From Patescibacteria group bacterium (GTDB lineage: Bacteria > Patescibacteriota > Minisyncoccia > Ryanbacterales > GWA2-47-10b), in assembly GCA_038064855.1 (NCBI GenBank), contig JBBTSE010000004.1:1-57962 (forward strand): a DNA stretch of 57,962 nucleotides. Reading direction: 5' to 3'. A program made the translations under genes and the position numbers. Under the pieces are notes generated by a model. The model was given only the letters and a program-made list of their open reading frames with translations. It ran no database searches and had not been told where the DNA came from. This document shows positions 6,926 to 31,135 of the stretch, piece by piece (within the stretch, counting starts at the first letter, position 1; every line of letters begins with the position of its first letter).

Positions 6926-6957
6926 AAAAACAACCCCGCAACTGCGGGATTGTTTTT
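6925..6957. terminator. Bidirectional terminator between the MerR-like gene and rnpB
   Basis: A stem of about 12 pairs with one A-C mismatch around CCCGCAACTGCGGG, flanked by a T-run on the right and an A-run on the left, so it works in both directions. It directly follows the MerR-like stop and the 3' end of RNase P RNA. Confidence 0.85.
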
Positions 6958-7353
6958 AGATACGCCCGTAAGCCGGGTTCTGTTTTATGTAATCATCTAT
7001 CTGGGCTCGTGGTTACCCGACGAGCTCGAGCCTCCGACAAAATGCTTTCGCATAGTACGGGAGTTGCACCGGGCAAGTGTTTTCCTCCGTGCGTGATTGC
7101 TCACGCACGCTGTGGTCTCTTACACCACTCTTTTCACCCTTACCTCCTTCAACATTTTGAGCATTACCTCAAGCTGATGACGATCGGCGGTTTGGTCTCT
7201 GTGGCACTATCTCGTATCTCGGCTCACCATTACTAGTGAGACGGAATGGATGGTCGTTAGCCATTGCCACTTTATCAAAGAAAAAATCTTTGAAATGGTG
7301 CCCGGACTTTCCTCTCATGCACTTGCGTACACAAGCGATTACTCAGCGTATCT
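6958..7353 (-). ncRNA. rnpB: RNase P RNA
   Basis: The reverse strand has the hallmark 3' end ACAGAACCCGGCTTA and the 5' GAGGAAAGTCCGGGC. Helix P1 can be placed exactly: AGATACGC at the 5' end (7346-7353) pairs perfectly with GCGTATCT at the 3' end (6958-6965). This gives a 396-nt RNA. It is the catalytic subunit that cuts tRNA 5' leaders. It has its own promoter and terminator. The protein subunit rnpA is not in this window. Confidence 0.96.
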
Positions 7354-7360
7354 ATGTGGT

Positions 7361-25856: not shown

Positions 25857-26396
25857 ATGCAAAACTTTAGCGGCCCCAAAGAACTTATCGACCATCTTGA
25901 TATCTATGGCCCTCAGACGGTCGTTGATTTTGGCGCGGGCGCGGGACTGTTAGCGCTCCCGCTTGCAAAAAAATTATCACCCGAAAACGGCAAACTCTAT
26001 GCGATCGATATCCAAGAAGGACCCCTCGAAGTACTGCGTAATGCAGCGCGCAAAGCACACCTCTATCATGTTGAGACCTTACGCGGCAATCTTGAGAAAG
26101 CCGGCGGCAGTAAACTGAAAGACAGTATCGCGGACTGGGTCTTTGTGGCAAATGTTCTTTTCCAGGCGCCCGATAAAAAAACGATCCTTGAAGAAGCGTT
26201 TCGTATACTTAAAGACCACGGTACACTGGTAGTAGTTGAGTGGCATCCGGAAACAGTACATATGGTTGGGCCAAAGCGCGAAACGCGAATCCCCAAATCA
26301 ACCTTGTTTGATATCGTACGCGCTAGTGGCTTTGCCTCACTGCGCGAATTTACTCTCGGTGAACATCACCATGGGCTCATCGCCAAAAAAACATGA
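25857..26396 (+). CDS. Class I SAM-dependent methyltransferase
   Basis: 179 residues. Motif I VVDFGAGAGLLALPLA (about 20-35), acidic motif II YAIDIQEGPLEVLR, motif III region ADWVFVANVLFQAPD and a Methyltransf_11/25-like end (LKDHGTLVVVEWHPE, FTLGEHHHGLIAKK). The substrate cannot be told. ATG 25857 is preferred to the TTG three bases earlier. Its TGA overlaps the next ATG (ATGA at 26393). Confidence 0.85.
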   Translation: MQNFSGPKELIDHLDIYGPQTVVDFGAGAGLLALPLAKKLSPENGKLYAIDIQEGPLEVLRNAARKAHLYHVETLRGNLEKAGGSKLKDSIADWVFVANVLFQAPDKKTILEEAFRILKDHGTLVVVEWHPETVHMVGPKRETRIPKSTLFDIVRASGFASLREFTLGEHHHGLIAKKT

Positions 26397-27685
26397 AAAA
26401 CAAAGTACAAATCATTGCCATCATCGTCTCGATTATTGTCATAATTGCTTCGCTCATTGTATTTTCTAGTACGGGAGAACCCCGACCCGTAGGTTTTGGT
26501 GATGTCAAAGAAGTTATCATTTGGGGCGTTGACGACCCAATGCTCTTTGAAGAAGCGGTAGAAGACTACACAGATCAATTTCATAAAAAAGTAACCTACA
26601 TCGAAAAAGATCCGCGCACCTTTGATCGCGATCTGCTCGAGGCAATCGCCGCAGGTGAAAGTCCGCAGGCGATTATCACCTCAACCGATTGGATAGCAAA
26701 AAACCGCGACAAGATAGCCCCACCCAAACAATCAATTGTACGCGCAGAAGATGTGGAGATGGCATTTGCCGACCTTGCGACCATAGCGCTCGTTGAGCAC
26801 AAAAAAGTTGAGAACAAACCTGATGAAAAAACCGTATGGGGACTCCCCTTATGGATTGACCCTTTGGTGCTTTTTTGGAATAAAGATCTTTTTAATCAAT
26901 CACTTGTCGCCGTCTCACCCGCTACCTGGCATGACTTTCTAAGTACCTCAAATAAAATAAAAGAACTTGGTGCAGGAGGTACCATACTTCGCTCAGGTGC
27001 GTCATTGGGACGCGCACGCAATATACCACTCCACAAAGAGATACTCGCATTGTTACTTCTCCAACAGGGCGCTTCCCTTGAAGAAGCACTCTTTGCGGAT
27101 ACCACCAACCAAGGTCCGATATCATTGAGTGTACTACGCTTTTATACCGATTACGGCAAACCAGGTACGGCTGCCTACACTTGGCACGGTGTACTTGCCG
27201 AGCCTCGTGAGCTTTTTATCGAAGGCAAGCTTGGCATGATGCTTGATCACTATTCGTACAAAAAAGAACTGGAGGATAAAAATCCTCATCGTGCGTTTGA
27301 TATTTCACCCGTACCACAAACGCAAGGTGGCAAACTGGCCTATGTCGCCGATGTGCGTGCAATCACCATACCCAAAGGAGCATCGGAGCAAGATGCCGCG
27401 TGGGCTTTCGCGCGCTTTCTTGTCAGTGAACCGGAACTCAAAAAAATCATTTCTCGAGGTGTCGTTGTCGCGGCGCGGCGTGACCTCATCGCCGTTGACT
27501 CACTGCCAGAGATTCTCAAAAGATCAGTTCTCAATGCAAAATCATCGTTTGAACAGTATCCAAAAGAAAACGCGCCCATCATCAAAGAGATGATCGAGAG
27601 TATTGCTAACGGGCGGCTTTTACCGTCAGAAGCAGTGAGTGAAGCGCGATTAAAACGCAAGCGTCTCATCGATGAAAAAAAGTAG
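26393..27685 (+). CDS. Extracellular solute-binding protein, membrane-anchored, orphan
   Basis: 430 residues: an N-terminal hydrophobic anchor (6-26) with no lipobox Cys, then a family 1 (sugar-type) periplasmic-binding fold with SPQAIITSTDWIAKN, VWGLPLWIDPLVLFWNKDLF, ATWHDFLSTSNKIKEL and the hinge-region FARFLVSEPELKKI. No ABC permease or ATPase is nearby. It overlaps the methyltransferase by 4 bases and the first pilin-hydrolase gene by 14 bases, so it is translationally tied to the surface cluster. It might sense or capture an oligosaccharide, perhaps a wall fragment, but this is inference. Confidence 0.82.
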   Translation: MKNKVQIIAIIVSIIVIIASLIVFSSTGEPRPVGFGDVKEVIIWGVDDPMLFEEAVEDYTDQFHKKVTYIEKDPRTFDRDLLEAIAAGESPQAIITSTDWIAKNRDKIAPPKQSIVRAEDVEMAFADLATIALVEHKKVENKPDEKTVWGLPLWIDPLVLFWNKDLFNQSLVAVSPATWHDFLSTSNKIKELGAGGTILRSGASLGRARNIPLHKEILALLLLQQGASLEEALFADTTNQGPISLSVLRFYTDYGKPGTAAYTWHGVLAEPRELFIEGKLGMMLDHYSYKKELEDKNPHRAFDISPVPQTQGGKLAYVADVRAITIPKGASEQDAAWAFARFLVSEPELKKIISRGVVVAARRDLIAVDSLPEILKRSVLNAKSSFEQYPKENAPIIKEMIESIANGRLLPSEAVSEARLKRKRLIDEKK

Positions 27686-28817
27686 CGCGATTTTCACCCT
27701 CACCCTCCTTCTCCTCGCGCTTCCCCTCCTTACCTTTGCCGCAGCACCAGAAGGTGGATTGGTACCAGTAGGATGTCAGACGGGTTGTCCGTGTTCGTTC
27801 TGTGATCTGTATGATCTTGCTGACAATATCATAGGGTTTTTGCTCTACATCATTGCCGTACCTGTTGCGGCAGGTGCTTTCTTGTATGGTGGAGTACTCA
27901 TGCTGACATCGGGAGGCAATCCGAGTCAGATTACCAAAGGAAGAGGGGTGATGACCAATGCGGTTATTGGTATGGCATTGGCGTTCTTTGCATGGGCGAT
28001 ATTCAATACTATTCTTTCGACTATTGGGTTTGGTATTAAAAAAGCAAGTTGGTATGACATACCAAAGTGTGACCCTGGTGGTGGGACTGCGAGTTGTAAT
28101 GTTGATTTGGGAAAAGAGGTGACAGTGGATCCAGTGGGGCCGGTACTTGCAGGTAGAAATTTTACCGGAAATATCGATGATGGGTGCTTTCGTGATGGCG
28201 TTAATATCTGCGGAGCCGATGGGTCCGATCTCCTCAATGGTAACGAAGGACTCCACCAAGAGGCGAAATCTGCTTCTATGGCTGATCTCGCGCGCTATGA
28301 AAGCGTCATCAATGCATTGGCCGCACAGTATGGCGTTGATCCTGATCGTATTCGTGCCATTATTGCCGCTGAATCGTCAGGCAACGAAAATGCGACACAC
28401 CAAGACCGCGACGGCAAATCATCCTACGGACTCATGCAAGTCCGTATGGATACTGCGTGCCAGATAGACCCGCCACTTTGCAGTCTGTCGCCTGCCGAAG
28501 CGCGAGAGCGTTTGAGTGCGCCGTCATATAATCTTGAAATGGGTATCGCATACTATAAACAAATGCTCAATAAATATGGCGGCGATGAGACGCTTGCATC
28601 TGCCGCTTACAATGGTGGTCCAGGAGCAAATAACAATAGTACAAATTGCCCCGGGCAACTGCGCTGGCAATGCGAATGGGATGATGATCCGGCCGTCTCC
28701 GGCACCTGCAATAGTAGCGTGTCAACTGCTGGTTGCAAAAGAAACACGGGCTATCAAGTTACTCGCGATTACACGGGAAAGCTGAATGATCTTGAAAACC
28801 AATACCGTGGAAATTAA
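27672..28817 (+). CDS. T4SS-pilin-like domain fused to a lytic transglycosylase (SLT)
   Basis: 381 residues. Signal peptide 1-24 (cut near FAA), then a VirB2/T4SS-pilin-like module (about 25-150): a Cys cluster CPCSFCDLYDLADN, helix 1, YGGVLMLTSGGNPSQITKGRG, helix 2 (AVIGMALAFFAWAIFNTIL). A linker leads to a soluble SLT domain from about 205: IIAAESSGN (catalytic Glu), YGLMQV, SLEMGIAYYKQ-type helix and SAAYNGGPG. This would cut glycan strands of peptidoglycan. It resembles VirB1 and VirB2 in one chain, which I have not seen described. Residues 9-150 are encoded by a repeat identical to the next gene. Confidence 0.85.
   Translation: MKKSSAIFTLTLLLLALPLLTFAAAPEGGLVPVGCQTGCPCSFCDLYDLADNIIGFLLYIIAVPVAAGAFLYGGVLMLTSGGNPSQITKGRGVMTNAVIGMALAFFAWAIFNTILSTIGFGIKKASWYDIPKCDPGGGTASCNVDLGKEVTVDPVGPVLAGRNFTGNIDDGCFRDGVNICGADGSDLLNGNEGLHQEAKSASMADLARYESVINALAAQYGVDPDRIRAIIAAESSGNENATHQDRDGKSSYGLMQVRMDTACQIDPPLCSLSPAEARERLSAPSYNLEMGIAYYKQMLNKYGGDETLASAAYNGGPGANNNSTNCPGQLRWQCEWDDDPAVSGTCNSSVSTAGCKRNTGYQVTRDYTGKLNDLENQYRGN
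27695..28121 (+). repeat. 427-bp direct repeat, copy 1
   Basis: Identical by eye, base for base, to 28848-29274 (offset 1153). It encodes the end of the signal peptide and the whole pilin-like module, in the same frame in both genes. Confidence 0.95.
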
Positions 28818-28821
28818 TCGC

Positions 28822-29727
28822 ATGAGATATCAATACTTCAGTATTGCCACCCTCACCCTCCTTCTCCTCGCGCTTCCCCTCCTTACCTTTGCCGCAGCAC
28901 CAGAAGGTGGATTGGTACCAGTAGGATGTCAGACGGGTTGTCCGTGTTCGTTCTGTGATCTGTATGATCTTGCTGACAATATCATAGGGTTTTTGCTCTA
29001 CATCATTGCCGTACCTGTTGCGGCAGGTGCTTTCTTGTATGGTGGAGTACTCATGCTGACATCGGGAGGCAATCCGAGTCAGATTACCAAAGGAAGAGGG
29101 GTGATGACCAATGCGGTTATTGGTATGGCATTGGCGTTCTTTGCATGGGCGATATTCAATACTATTCTTTCGACTATTGGGTTTGGTATTAAAAAAGCAA
29201 GTTGGTATGACATACCAAAGTGTGACCCTGGTGGTGGGACTGCGAGTTGTAATGTTGATTTGGGAAAAGAGGTGGTGCCCGAGCCGCCAGGGCCGACCGT
29301 CCCACCTCCTAGTGGAGGGCCGCCTCCACCCTTAGGCGAAGGTCTCTCGCATCAGGAAGCACGAGATATGTTACGCGCGGCAGGTATTGATATCTCCTCG
29401 TCAGGAAACTGCGAAGAAGATAGGCCCGGATGCACCTATCTGGGAGGACTATCGCAAGAAACTATCAACCGCATCATACAAGTTGATATAGGATGCAATG
29501 GCTGTGTTACAATTACGGGAGGAACCGAGCCGGGCCATGCCTCTCACGGTGCCGACCACCCAAACACCGTAGATCTCCGCTATAGTGAAGGAGCAGTCTC
29601 TTCATTGCGAGGCAATGGGCTACCTACAGATGCGAACTTTGGGCGCGGAGCTACCTGCGAACTTGGCGGCCGAAAAGTTACCTGCGGTAGCTTGCCCAGA
29701 CCAGATCATATCCATGTTGAATTCTAA
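28822..29727 (+). CDS. T4SS-pilin-like domain fused to an M15-type peptidase-like domain
   Basis: 301 residues. It shares the preceding protein's pilin-like module exactly, with a different first 9 residues (MRYQYFSIA). A proline-rich linker (PEPPGPTVPPPSGG) leads to a C-terminal domain (about 185-301) with GHASHGADHPNTVDLRYS and the closing DHIHVEF. The spaced His/Asp and final HxH fit the zinc site of M15/hedgehog-fold D,D-carboxypeptidases, which trim peptidoglycan stems. Four extra Cys (GNCEEDRPGC, IGCNGC) suggest disulfides outside the cell. ATG 28822 is 4 bases past the previous stop. The M15 call is moderately sure. Confidence 0.78.
   Translation: MRYQYFSIATLTLLLLALPLLTFAAAPEGGLVPVGCQTGCPCSFCDLYDLADNIIGFLLYIIAVPVAAGAFLYGGVLMLTSGGNPSQITKGRGVMTNAVIGMALAFFAWAIFNTILSTIGFGIKKASWYDIPKCDPGGGTASCNVDLGKEVVPEPPGPTVPPPSGGPPPPLGEGLSHQEARDMLRAAGIDISSSGNCEEDRPGCTYLGGLSQETINRIIQVDIGCNGCVTITGGTEPGHASHGADHPNTVDLRYSEGAVSSLRGNGLPTDANFGRGATCELGGRKVTCGSLPRPDHIHVEF
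28848..29274 (+). repeat. 427-bp direct repeat, copy 2
   Basis: Second copy of 27695-28121. No mismatch was seen on reading through both, including third codon positions, so the duplication or conversion is recent. Confidence 0.95.
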
Positions 29728-30055
29728 AACACTCACACCTCTCATAGCATTTTTGACACCGCTTTTCGCAAACGCGGAGAAGCTTACCTTGAACTACAAA
29801 GAACTCCTTGACCTCAAATGCACTACGATCCCGGCATGCCTCGAGCTTCTCTTTAAAGCAGCTGTTGATGTCGCCTTCCCTATTGCTGTCGTCTTTATCC
29901 TCTGGTCGGGGTTTCTCTTTGTCTCGGCAGGTGGTAACCCTGAGAAGATAAAAACAGCGCGTACAACGCTCCTTTGGGCGCTTATAGGTCTTACGGTCGT
30001 GATCGGTGCATGGACGCTTTCGGTCGCCTTTAAGGACTCATTCCTCGGCCTCTAA
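29714..30055 (+). CDS. T4SS-pilin-like small membrane protein
   Basis: 113 residues: weak signal sequence (MLNSKTLTPLIAFLTPLFANA), Cys pair in LDLKCTTIPACLELL, helix 1 (FPIAVVFILWSGFLFVSAGGNPEKIKTA) and helix 2 (LLWALIGLTVVIGAWTLSVAF). The GGNPEKIK turn between helices is the VirB2/T4SS-pilin hallmark. ATG 29714 overlaps the M15-fusion stop by 14 bases; the longer reading from 29585 is rejected because it lies in that gene. Confidence 0.82.
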   Translation: MLNSKTLTPLIAFLTPLFANAEKLTLNYKELLDLKCTTIPACLELLFKAAVDVAFPIAVVFILWSGFLFVSAGGNPEKIKTARTTLLWALIGLTVVIGAWTLSVAFKDSFLGL

Positions 30056-30057
30056 TT

Positions 30058-30420
30058 ATGATCTCTTTCCACAAGCTGTTTGGCAAAAAACCACTCTCGG
30101 CTATACTAATGGTAGCGGCTCTCTGCGTCATAGCGGGCACGGCATCTGCGGCGCTCGATAATATCTCAAAGTCCCCTACCAAATCTCAAGACTTCGCAGG
30201 AATCTTGCAAGGGATCGCCGATTTTGTAACCACATTCGGCACTCCGGTAGCAGCATTCTTTATAGTGCTCAGCGGTCTCATGTTTGTTGCCGCACGAGGC
30301 AACGCGCAGAAACTCGAGGAGGCACGCACGATGTTTCTATGGGTTTTGGTGGGTACGGCTATTATCGTGGGCGCAGGACCCATCGCCTCTATGATCATTG
30401 ACTTTGCAAAAAAGCTCTAG
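30058..30420 (+). CDS. T4SS-pilin-like small membrane protein
   Basis: 120 residues: signal peptide to about 32 (ending ASA), then helix 1 (FGTPVAAFFIVLSGLMFVAARGN), AQKLEEARTMFLW, and helix 2 (VLVGTAIIVGAGPIASMII). It has the same two-helix plan with an R-G-N-A-Q-K-L turn. Two bases after the preceding gene. Confidence 0.8.
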   Translation: MISFHKLFGKKPLSAILMVAALCVIAGTASAALDNISKSPTKSQDFAGILQGIADFVTTFGTPVAAFFIVLSGLMFVAARGNAQKLEEARTMFLWVLVGTAIIVGAGPIASMIIDFAKKL

Positions 30421-30479
30421 TGAGATATTGCAAAGATCGTCGTCCGTTATTATCCATTATTCACAACAATAATTACTTT

Positions 30480-30833
30480 ATGAGTAAAAAAATTTTCACA
30501 CACGCTGCTGTCTTAGCGATCGCTCTTATGCCCTTGATTGTCGCGGCACAAGCACAAGGTGGTGACATCAAAGGATTTATCACTGGCACCCTCGGAGGTA
30601 TCGTTGGCGCGCTTATCAACTTCTTGATCGCGGTCGCCACCCTCGTGTTCATCTTCGGTGTCATTAGATACATCGCGGCCGGCGGTGACGCTGAAAAGGT
30701 TAAAGAAGCCCGTAGCTATATCATCTTTGCAATCGTAGGCCTTGCGGCAATCCTTGGTATTTGGGGTATCGCGAGACTGCTCGCAACAGGTATTGGAGGT
30801 TCTGATACCAACATCCCAACGCTTACTATCTAA
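30480..30833 (+). CDS. T4SS-pilin-like small membrane protein
   Basis: 117 residues: signal peptide MSKKIFTHAAVLAIALMPLIVAAQA, helix 1 (GALINFLIAVATLVFIFGVIRYIAAGGD), the turn AEKVKEARSYI, helix 2 (FAIVGLAAILGIWGIARLLA), short tail. This is the closest of the set to textbook VirB2/TrbC pilins. ATG 30480 is preferred because the signal peptide starts there; 59 noncoding bases precede it. Confidence 0.83.
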   Translation: MSKKIFTHAAVLAIALMPLIVAAQAQGGDIKGFITGTLGGIVGALINFLIAVATLVFIFGVIRYIAAGGDAEKVKEARSYIIFAIVGLAAILGIWGIARLLATGIGGSDTNIPTLTI

Positions 30834-30840
30834 TAACCGC

Positions 30841-31092
30841 ATGCCGCCACTCGCAGATATCCAAGACATCGTTGGCACCGTTGTTGATAATATTATCAAC
30901 CCACTATTCATACTGGCTTTCGGTCTAGCAACACTCCTCTTTATGTGGGGCGTGATCCAAGCCATGATGAGTCCTGATGATACGGAGGCACGCCAAAACG
31001 GCAAGCAGCATATTATCTGGGGAATTGTAGGGGCAGCAATCATGCTCGGAACTGGTGGGATCATCCGCCTCCTCATGAGCATTTGGAAGTAA
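30841..31092 (+). CDS. T4SS-pilin-like small membrane protein, no signal peptide
   Basis: 83 residues: MPPLADIQDIVGTVVDNIIN, helix 1 (PLFILAFGLATLLFMWGVIQAMM), turn SPDDTEARQNGKQHI, helix 2 (IIWGIVGAAIMLGTGGIIRLLM). It lacks a cleavable signal, unlike its neighbours. Seven bases after the previous gene; last of the cluster, followed by a terminator. Confidence 0.78.
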   Translation: MPPLADIQDIVGTVVDNIINPLFILAFGLATLLFMWGVIQAMMSPDDTEARQNGKQHIIWGIVGAAIMLGTGGIIRLLMSIWK

Positions 31093-31104
31093 GCTAAGGC
31101 ATAC

Positions 31105-31135
31105 AAAAACTCCGCAGCTGCGGGGTTTTTGTTTA
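31105..31135. terminator. Terminator at the end of the pilin cluster
   Basis: Palindromic CCGCAGCTGCGG core with AAAAACT and GGTTTTTG flanks, followed by TTT. Serves the rightward cluster and probably the convergent glycosyltransferase. Confidence 0.85.

Follow-up and report, generated by a model that had tools for sequence, protein, structure and literature searches.

Can the enzyme that opens the wall for a type IV secretion system (T4SS) be part of the pilin itself? A locus in the genome of a Candidatus Ryanbacteria bacterium (~805 kb in 11 contigs) raises this question. In the window, that is, the whole stretch of 57,962 nt that was analyzed, six consecutive rightward and mostly overlapping ORFs form an array at 27672-31092 (+), and a first-pass annotation had proposed that the first two join pilin and wall-hydrolase functions in single chains. 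The text of a survey of Patescibacteria T4SSs describes tandem VirB2/T4SS_pilin arrays of 2-11 genes, among them the array that is essential in Ca. S. epibionticum, with identity within arrays of at most 54%; it also states that most Patescibacteria genomes with VirB2 are without VirB1 (PMC12102498).

Two long fusion genes lead a pilin array

The tandem cluster of six pilin-like genes was confirmed at the coordinates first assigned to it. The T4SS_pilin family (PF18895; cut-off, 26.6 bits) was matched above cut-off in ORFs 1, 2, 3 and 6 (36-41 bits), and TrbC/VirB2 (PF04956; cut-off, 27.9 bits) was matched in ORF4, placing the shared module in the pilin family. ORF1 (27672..28817, +; 381 aa) consists of a Sec signal, a lead VirB2-like pilin module (PF18895, 36.1 bits) and an SLT lytic transglycosylase domain. 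ORF2 (28822..29727, +; 301 aa), whose exact start is 28822, consists of a Sec signal, a lead pilin module identical to that of ORF1 (PF18895, 36.7 bits) and a putative LAS-type (Hedgehog/M15-like) metallopeptidase. The remaining genes encode short VirB2-like pilins: ORF3 (29714..30055, +; PF18895, 41.2 bits), ORF4 (30058..30420, +; PF04956, 36.3 bits), ORF5 (30480..30833, +; PF18895 at 23.8 bits, just under the cut-off, with a syntenic orthologue in the relative G002 that is 91% identical) and ORF6 (30841..31092, +; PF18895, 41.1 bits), the last without a signal peptide. The array ends at an intrinsic-terminator-like hairpin (31103..31132, +) whose 13-pair stem precedes a T-rich tail.

Upstream of the array lie gyrA and the genes for a methyltransferase and a solute-binding protein. 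The last of these (26393-27685) overlaps ORF1, and its position ahead of the array is kept in the relatives G001, G003 and G004. The window also holds a class A RNase P RNA gene at 6953-7354.

The SLT domain of ORF1

The SLT domain (28305..28640, +) matched PF01464 with E=1.7e-19 and contains the motifs AESSGN, SYGLMQV and AAYNGGPG. The catalytic Glu (in ESSGN), GLMQV and AAYNGGPG are all present and aligned with their counterparts in two genomes of other families (G036 and G020), in agreement with the earlier description of an intact transglycosylase. This is the sole SLT domain in the 805-kb genome, and the only SLT of G036 and of G020 is likewise fused to a pilin, so that the same arrangement is found in three genomes from three families. 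No SLT was found in the assemblies of the nearest relatives, G001, G002 and G003. Judging from its domain and its genomic context, ORF1 would cut glycan strands for T4SS assembly.

The C-terminal domain of ORF2

The C-terminal domain of ORF2 (29347..29724, +; AF2 pLDDT 83.7) had no Pfam, PHROG or NCBIfam match and no significant PDB-sequence match. In an alignment of 18 homologues, which included actinobacterial secreted proteins, a zinc triad of His (29545-29547), Asp (29572-29574) and His (29707-29709) was invariant. Homologues occur in Patescibacteria (G001, G002, G004 and others), Actinobacteria and Chloroflexi. A profile search of the PDB ranked Sonic hedgehog top, at a sub-threshold E of 1.3; a search of a viral fold library gave M15A, cell-wall-hydrolase and MepK proteins, of which the best, M15A (E 0.02, probability 0.92), was not significant alone; and a PDB fold search with the model of an actinobacterial homologue (pLDDT 94) gave MepA at E 0.45, again not significant alone. 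Foldseek with the model of the ORF2 domain itself gave no meaningful match in the PDB. Because the three sub-threshold searches that indicate any fold all indicate LAS, a LAS-type fold is probable, with an enzyme class that is not statistically secured. The first-pass label of this domain, M15/hedgehog-like, thus stands as plausible on its motif, its topology and several sub-threshold matches, but it gained no significant family match.

Many of the actinobacterial homologues have the glutamate of an ExxH motif. The Ryanbacteria form, HIHVEF, has HxH and is without ExxH, and for this reason the enzymatic activity of ORF2 is less sure than that of ORF1. Comparison of ORF2 with its homologue in G002 gave a dN of 0.20 and a dS of 1.0, indicating purifying selection between species. 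ORF2 would probably cut stem peptides. The domain family itself (29347-29724 in the window; loci L093-L131) is an uncharacterised secreted family without a Pfam entry that is common in Actinobacteria (Streptomyces, Nonomuraea, Microbispora) and is found in some Chloroflexi.

Lead pilins and their payloads across the class

ORF1 and ORF2 are members of a recognisable subfamily, here called lead pilins, with a CxxC-(D/H)-L motif ahead of the first helix, a GG and an SGGNP turn. Of 287 genomes sampled from the source genome's class, 269 had a match to a profile of the lead pilin at E<=1e-12. It is normally encoded by the first gene of its array, with short pilins after it. Taking the best match per genome among the matches listed, the ORF with the lead pilin was 250 aa or longer in 67 of 148 genomes.

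We surveyed 91 C-terminal extensions (payloads) from 72 genomes with Pfam at E<=0.01. Wall hydrolases were represented by SLT (16), SLT_3 (6), VanY (2) and M15 (2), with M23, CHAP, NlpC/P60 and glucosaminidase as single cases; Ig, PKD, PA14 and lectin domains were also present. A profile of the ORF2 domain matched 16 of the 91 payloads, some of which had gone into building it. One genome (G029) carries three different wall-hydrolase payloads on neighbouring pilins, and in another (G038) the payload pilins reach 700-800 aa. Divergent LT-like and LAS-like payloads gave no significant profile comparison with the SLT and ORF2 sets, probably because the alignments were too shallow, and for lack of significance they were not counted as proven. 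The fusion is not universal, since 30 of 101 lead pilins in the tree set have no payload. Although the module tree was poorly resolved, its well-supported branches force at least four payload changes each for the SLT and the ORF2 type. Payload type changes often on this tree, and payloads would be exchangeable between lineages. These data bear out the expectation that the fusion recurs in other Patescibacteria: the module has a pilin-family match, the catalytic residues are conserved in homologues, and fusions are present across the class.

The sampled genomes also contain pilin-like matches in other settings. In G032 (loci L148 and L150) the order is reversed, with a long N-terminal extension (DUF2341 in one case) and a C-terminal pilin module, in several paralogues. 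A match at G367:C1:501430-501633 lies within a 14266-aa open frame, which would encode a giant protein, and those in several genomes of the phylum (G467, G429, G361, G348, G314, G293 and G449) lie within open frames of ~1500-1680 aa that resemble one another.

Linkage to VirB4 in relatives

As the first-pass annotation had noted, no VirB4/VirD4 ATPase gene lies in the window: the genes of the VirB4 cluster had no meaningful match within the 57,962 nt. The VirB4, TrsD, VirB3/PrgI and VirB6-like genes of the source genome adjoin dnaA on a different contig (C5), where names other than those of VirB4 and the pilin were assigned by comparing the order and length of the genes with the description in PMC12102498. 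The pilin-like protein of this cluster (L086:10308-11012) has 234 aa and a Cys-rich C-terminal extension. The earlier suggestion to look for VirB4-type ATPases near the fusion was answered in relatives rather than in the source genome. Pilin-hydrolase fusions directly adjoin VirB4/TrsD in three genomes (G037, G045 and G038), payload pilins of unknown type lie directly beside VirB4/TrsD in G040, and in G019 a lead pilin is followed by PrgI-TrsD-VirB4. Recurrence across the class, conserved catalytic residues and VirB4 neighbours in relatives together support the claim that single chains combine the functions of pilin and wall hydrolase.

Identical pilin modules with different payloads

The first-pass annotation had missed a direct repeat of 427 bp that makes the pilin modules of ORF1 (copy A, 27695..28121, +) and ORF2 (copy B, 28848..29274, +) identical at 427 of 427 positions, synonymous sites included. 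The repeat begins just past codon eight and runs through the remainder of the pilin module; outside its borders the two ORFs are unrelated. Because the module has reached saturation at synonymous sites between the source genome and its congener G001 (pS 0.74), protein constraint alone is insufficient to account for this identity, and the copies were therefore duplicated recently or homogenised. In G001, contigs break within the pilin at residue 106 (ORF1 side) and residue 117 (ORF2 side); one G002 contig begins at pilin residue 109, and one G003 contig ends inside the pilin gene. These breaks suggest that the same repeat is present in all three, although we found no overlap between the broken G001 contigs, which would prove it there.

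The comparison covered 112 sampled genomes and 796 pairs of non-overlapping pilins, each pair from a single locus; a pair counted as near-identical when 120 bp or more matched at 97% or above. Near-identical modules were found in 3 of the 14 pairs with long C-terminal payloads on both members and in 2 of the 782 remaining pairs, a comparison biased by one case, G327, which had been selected for the equal scores of its two matches. Several other seemingly identical pairs were discarded as overlapping ORFs on the same DNA. In G038, adjacent SLT-bearing pilins have modules that are 99% identical and payloads that are merely 26% identical over 626 aa. In G327, which is outside the class, 500 bp are 99.8% identical, the transglycosylase-like parts of the payloads are 34% identical and the other domains differ. 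In G035, adjacent pilins share an identical run of 263 bp, after which one continues into PKD/PA14 domains and the other into a 75-residue tail; this was one of the two remaining pairs. Payload pilins paired in this way thus occur in the source genome and three further lineages. Since homologous payloads have diverged far while the module has stayed identical, the pattern points to homogenisation of the paired modules by gene conversion. At the G327 locus (L234), the far ends of the two pilin-transglycosylase-like fusions resemble, by eye only, an N-acetylmuramoyl-L-alanine amidase and an SGNH esterase.

Discussion

We propose, with a probability of roughly 0.6, that in ORF1 and ORF2 the function of VirB1 has been built into a specialised VirB2, so that the T4SS receives its wall hydrolase in cis, in place of a separate VirB1. 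Both proteins would be payload-bearing versions of the lead pilin, a VirB2-like pilin specialised for the Patescibacteria T4SS. Sec would export the lead pilin, and its two-helix hairpin would enter the cytoplasmic membrane, which would put the C-terminal domain outside the cell. The protein, with its extension of 150-260 aa, could then stay anchored there, or it could be taken up by the VirB4 machine and become a minor subunit of the pilus, the first one or the one at the tip. The peptidoglycan hydrolase thus carried to the secretion site would open the wall in cis, the job of VirB1, with ORF1 cutting glycan strands and ORF2 probably stem peptides, and the four short pilins would be the bulk subunits. 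Where two payload versions coexist, gene conversion could preserve the identity of their modules and thereby let both fit one and the same filament or machine. This reading has points against it: lead pilins often carry no payload, VirB4 in the source genome is on a contig other than that of the array, the G001-G003 assemblies yielded no SLT, and the enzyme class of ORF2 is not secured statistically.

A rather unlikely alternative is that the pilin hairpin is merely a membrane anchor and that the fusions are wall hydrolases tethered near the T4SS that never enter the filament. Gram-positive VirB1 homologues are indeed membrane-anchored, multi-domain hydrolases (PMC12857230), and payload pilins as large as those of G038 would be awkward in a polymer. 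However, the anchor in question is no generic transmembrane helix but a VirB2-family pilin that heads a pilin array, and identity of the module between differing payloads in four genomes would be needless for a mere anchor.

The payloads might also be anti-host weapons, hydrolases that the filament tip brings to the wall of the cell carrying the epibiont in order to puncture it, a reading we consider unlikely. It would suit the lifestyle of cultivated Patescibacteria and the essential T4SS pilins of Ca. S. epibionticum (PMC10633639); the adhesion-type payloads of other lineages (lectin, PKD, PA14, Ig) suit an outward-facing subunit, and ORF2-type domains are also found in Actinobacteria and Chloroflexi. 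A sole SLT gene that lies in the array is, however, equally compatible with opening of the cell's own wall. The first-pass suggestion of a hydrolase at the filament tip or of a punctured host wall gained no support. VirB1-like opening of the own wall fits the data at least as well as puncture of a host wall, and sequence cannot separate the two.

It is very improbable that assembly produced the repeat artificially, or that it is a meaningless tandem duplication of very recent date: 427 bp is longer than short reads and the G001-G003 assemblies have no SLT gene, but the repeat is in frame on both sides of each unique segment, the G001 and G002 assemblies break inside the same module and that of G003 in the pilin gene, and G035, G038 and G327 are independent cases.

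A broader possibility, which we put forward tentatively and with the odds somewhat against it, is a system of constant pilin and variable payload. Gene conversion would keep lead-pilin paralogues identical, and recombination would swap their C-terminal payloads (hydrolases of several chemistries, lectins, Ig/PKD), and one T4SS filament could thereby be equipped anew to suit different walls or hosts. A recurring identical module with differing payloads would, if true, represent a new way in which pili diversify by modules. The data suggest that the wall-opening enzyme is often hidden inside Patescibacteria pilin genes, and this would account for part of the absence of VirB1 from most VirB2 genomes in the survey (PMC12102498). 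The fusion also offers a testable handle on how epibionts, whose T4SS is essential and of unknown function, pass a filament through walls.

T4SS pilin arrays and the function of VirB1 were already known. Our literature searches on pilin-hydrolase fusion yielded only papers on separate VirB1 and VirB2, and the literature searched held no description of the modular payload pattern or of recurrent module homogenisation. The present array belongs to the same pilin family as the Patescibacteria VirB2/TrbC and PF18895 arrays of the survey, but the main text of the survey has no hydrolase-bearing pilins, whereas here two hydrolase-fused modules are 100% identical in DNA (PMC12102498).

The ORF2 domain has H-x6..8-D and H-x-H/D motifs and a predicted strand order in common with the LAS metallopeptidases (MepA, M15, Hedgehog N-domain). 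Unlike these, it has no Pfam match and only sub-threshold sequence and fold matches, and it forms a distinct family that extends to Actinobacteria and Chloroflexi. Bacteria-killing T4SS effectors are likewise wall hydrolases associated with a T4SS, but they are soluble proteins that pass through the channel and are not parts of pilins. The VirB1 transglycosylases, including Gram-positive PrgK/TraG, are likewise SLT-type wall hydrolases of T4SSs, and the Gram-positive ones have multiple hydrolase domains and a membrane anchor. Known VirB1 proteins are separate from VirB2, whereas the anchor of the present SLT domain is itself a VirB2-like pilin module.
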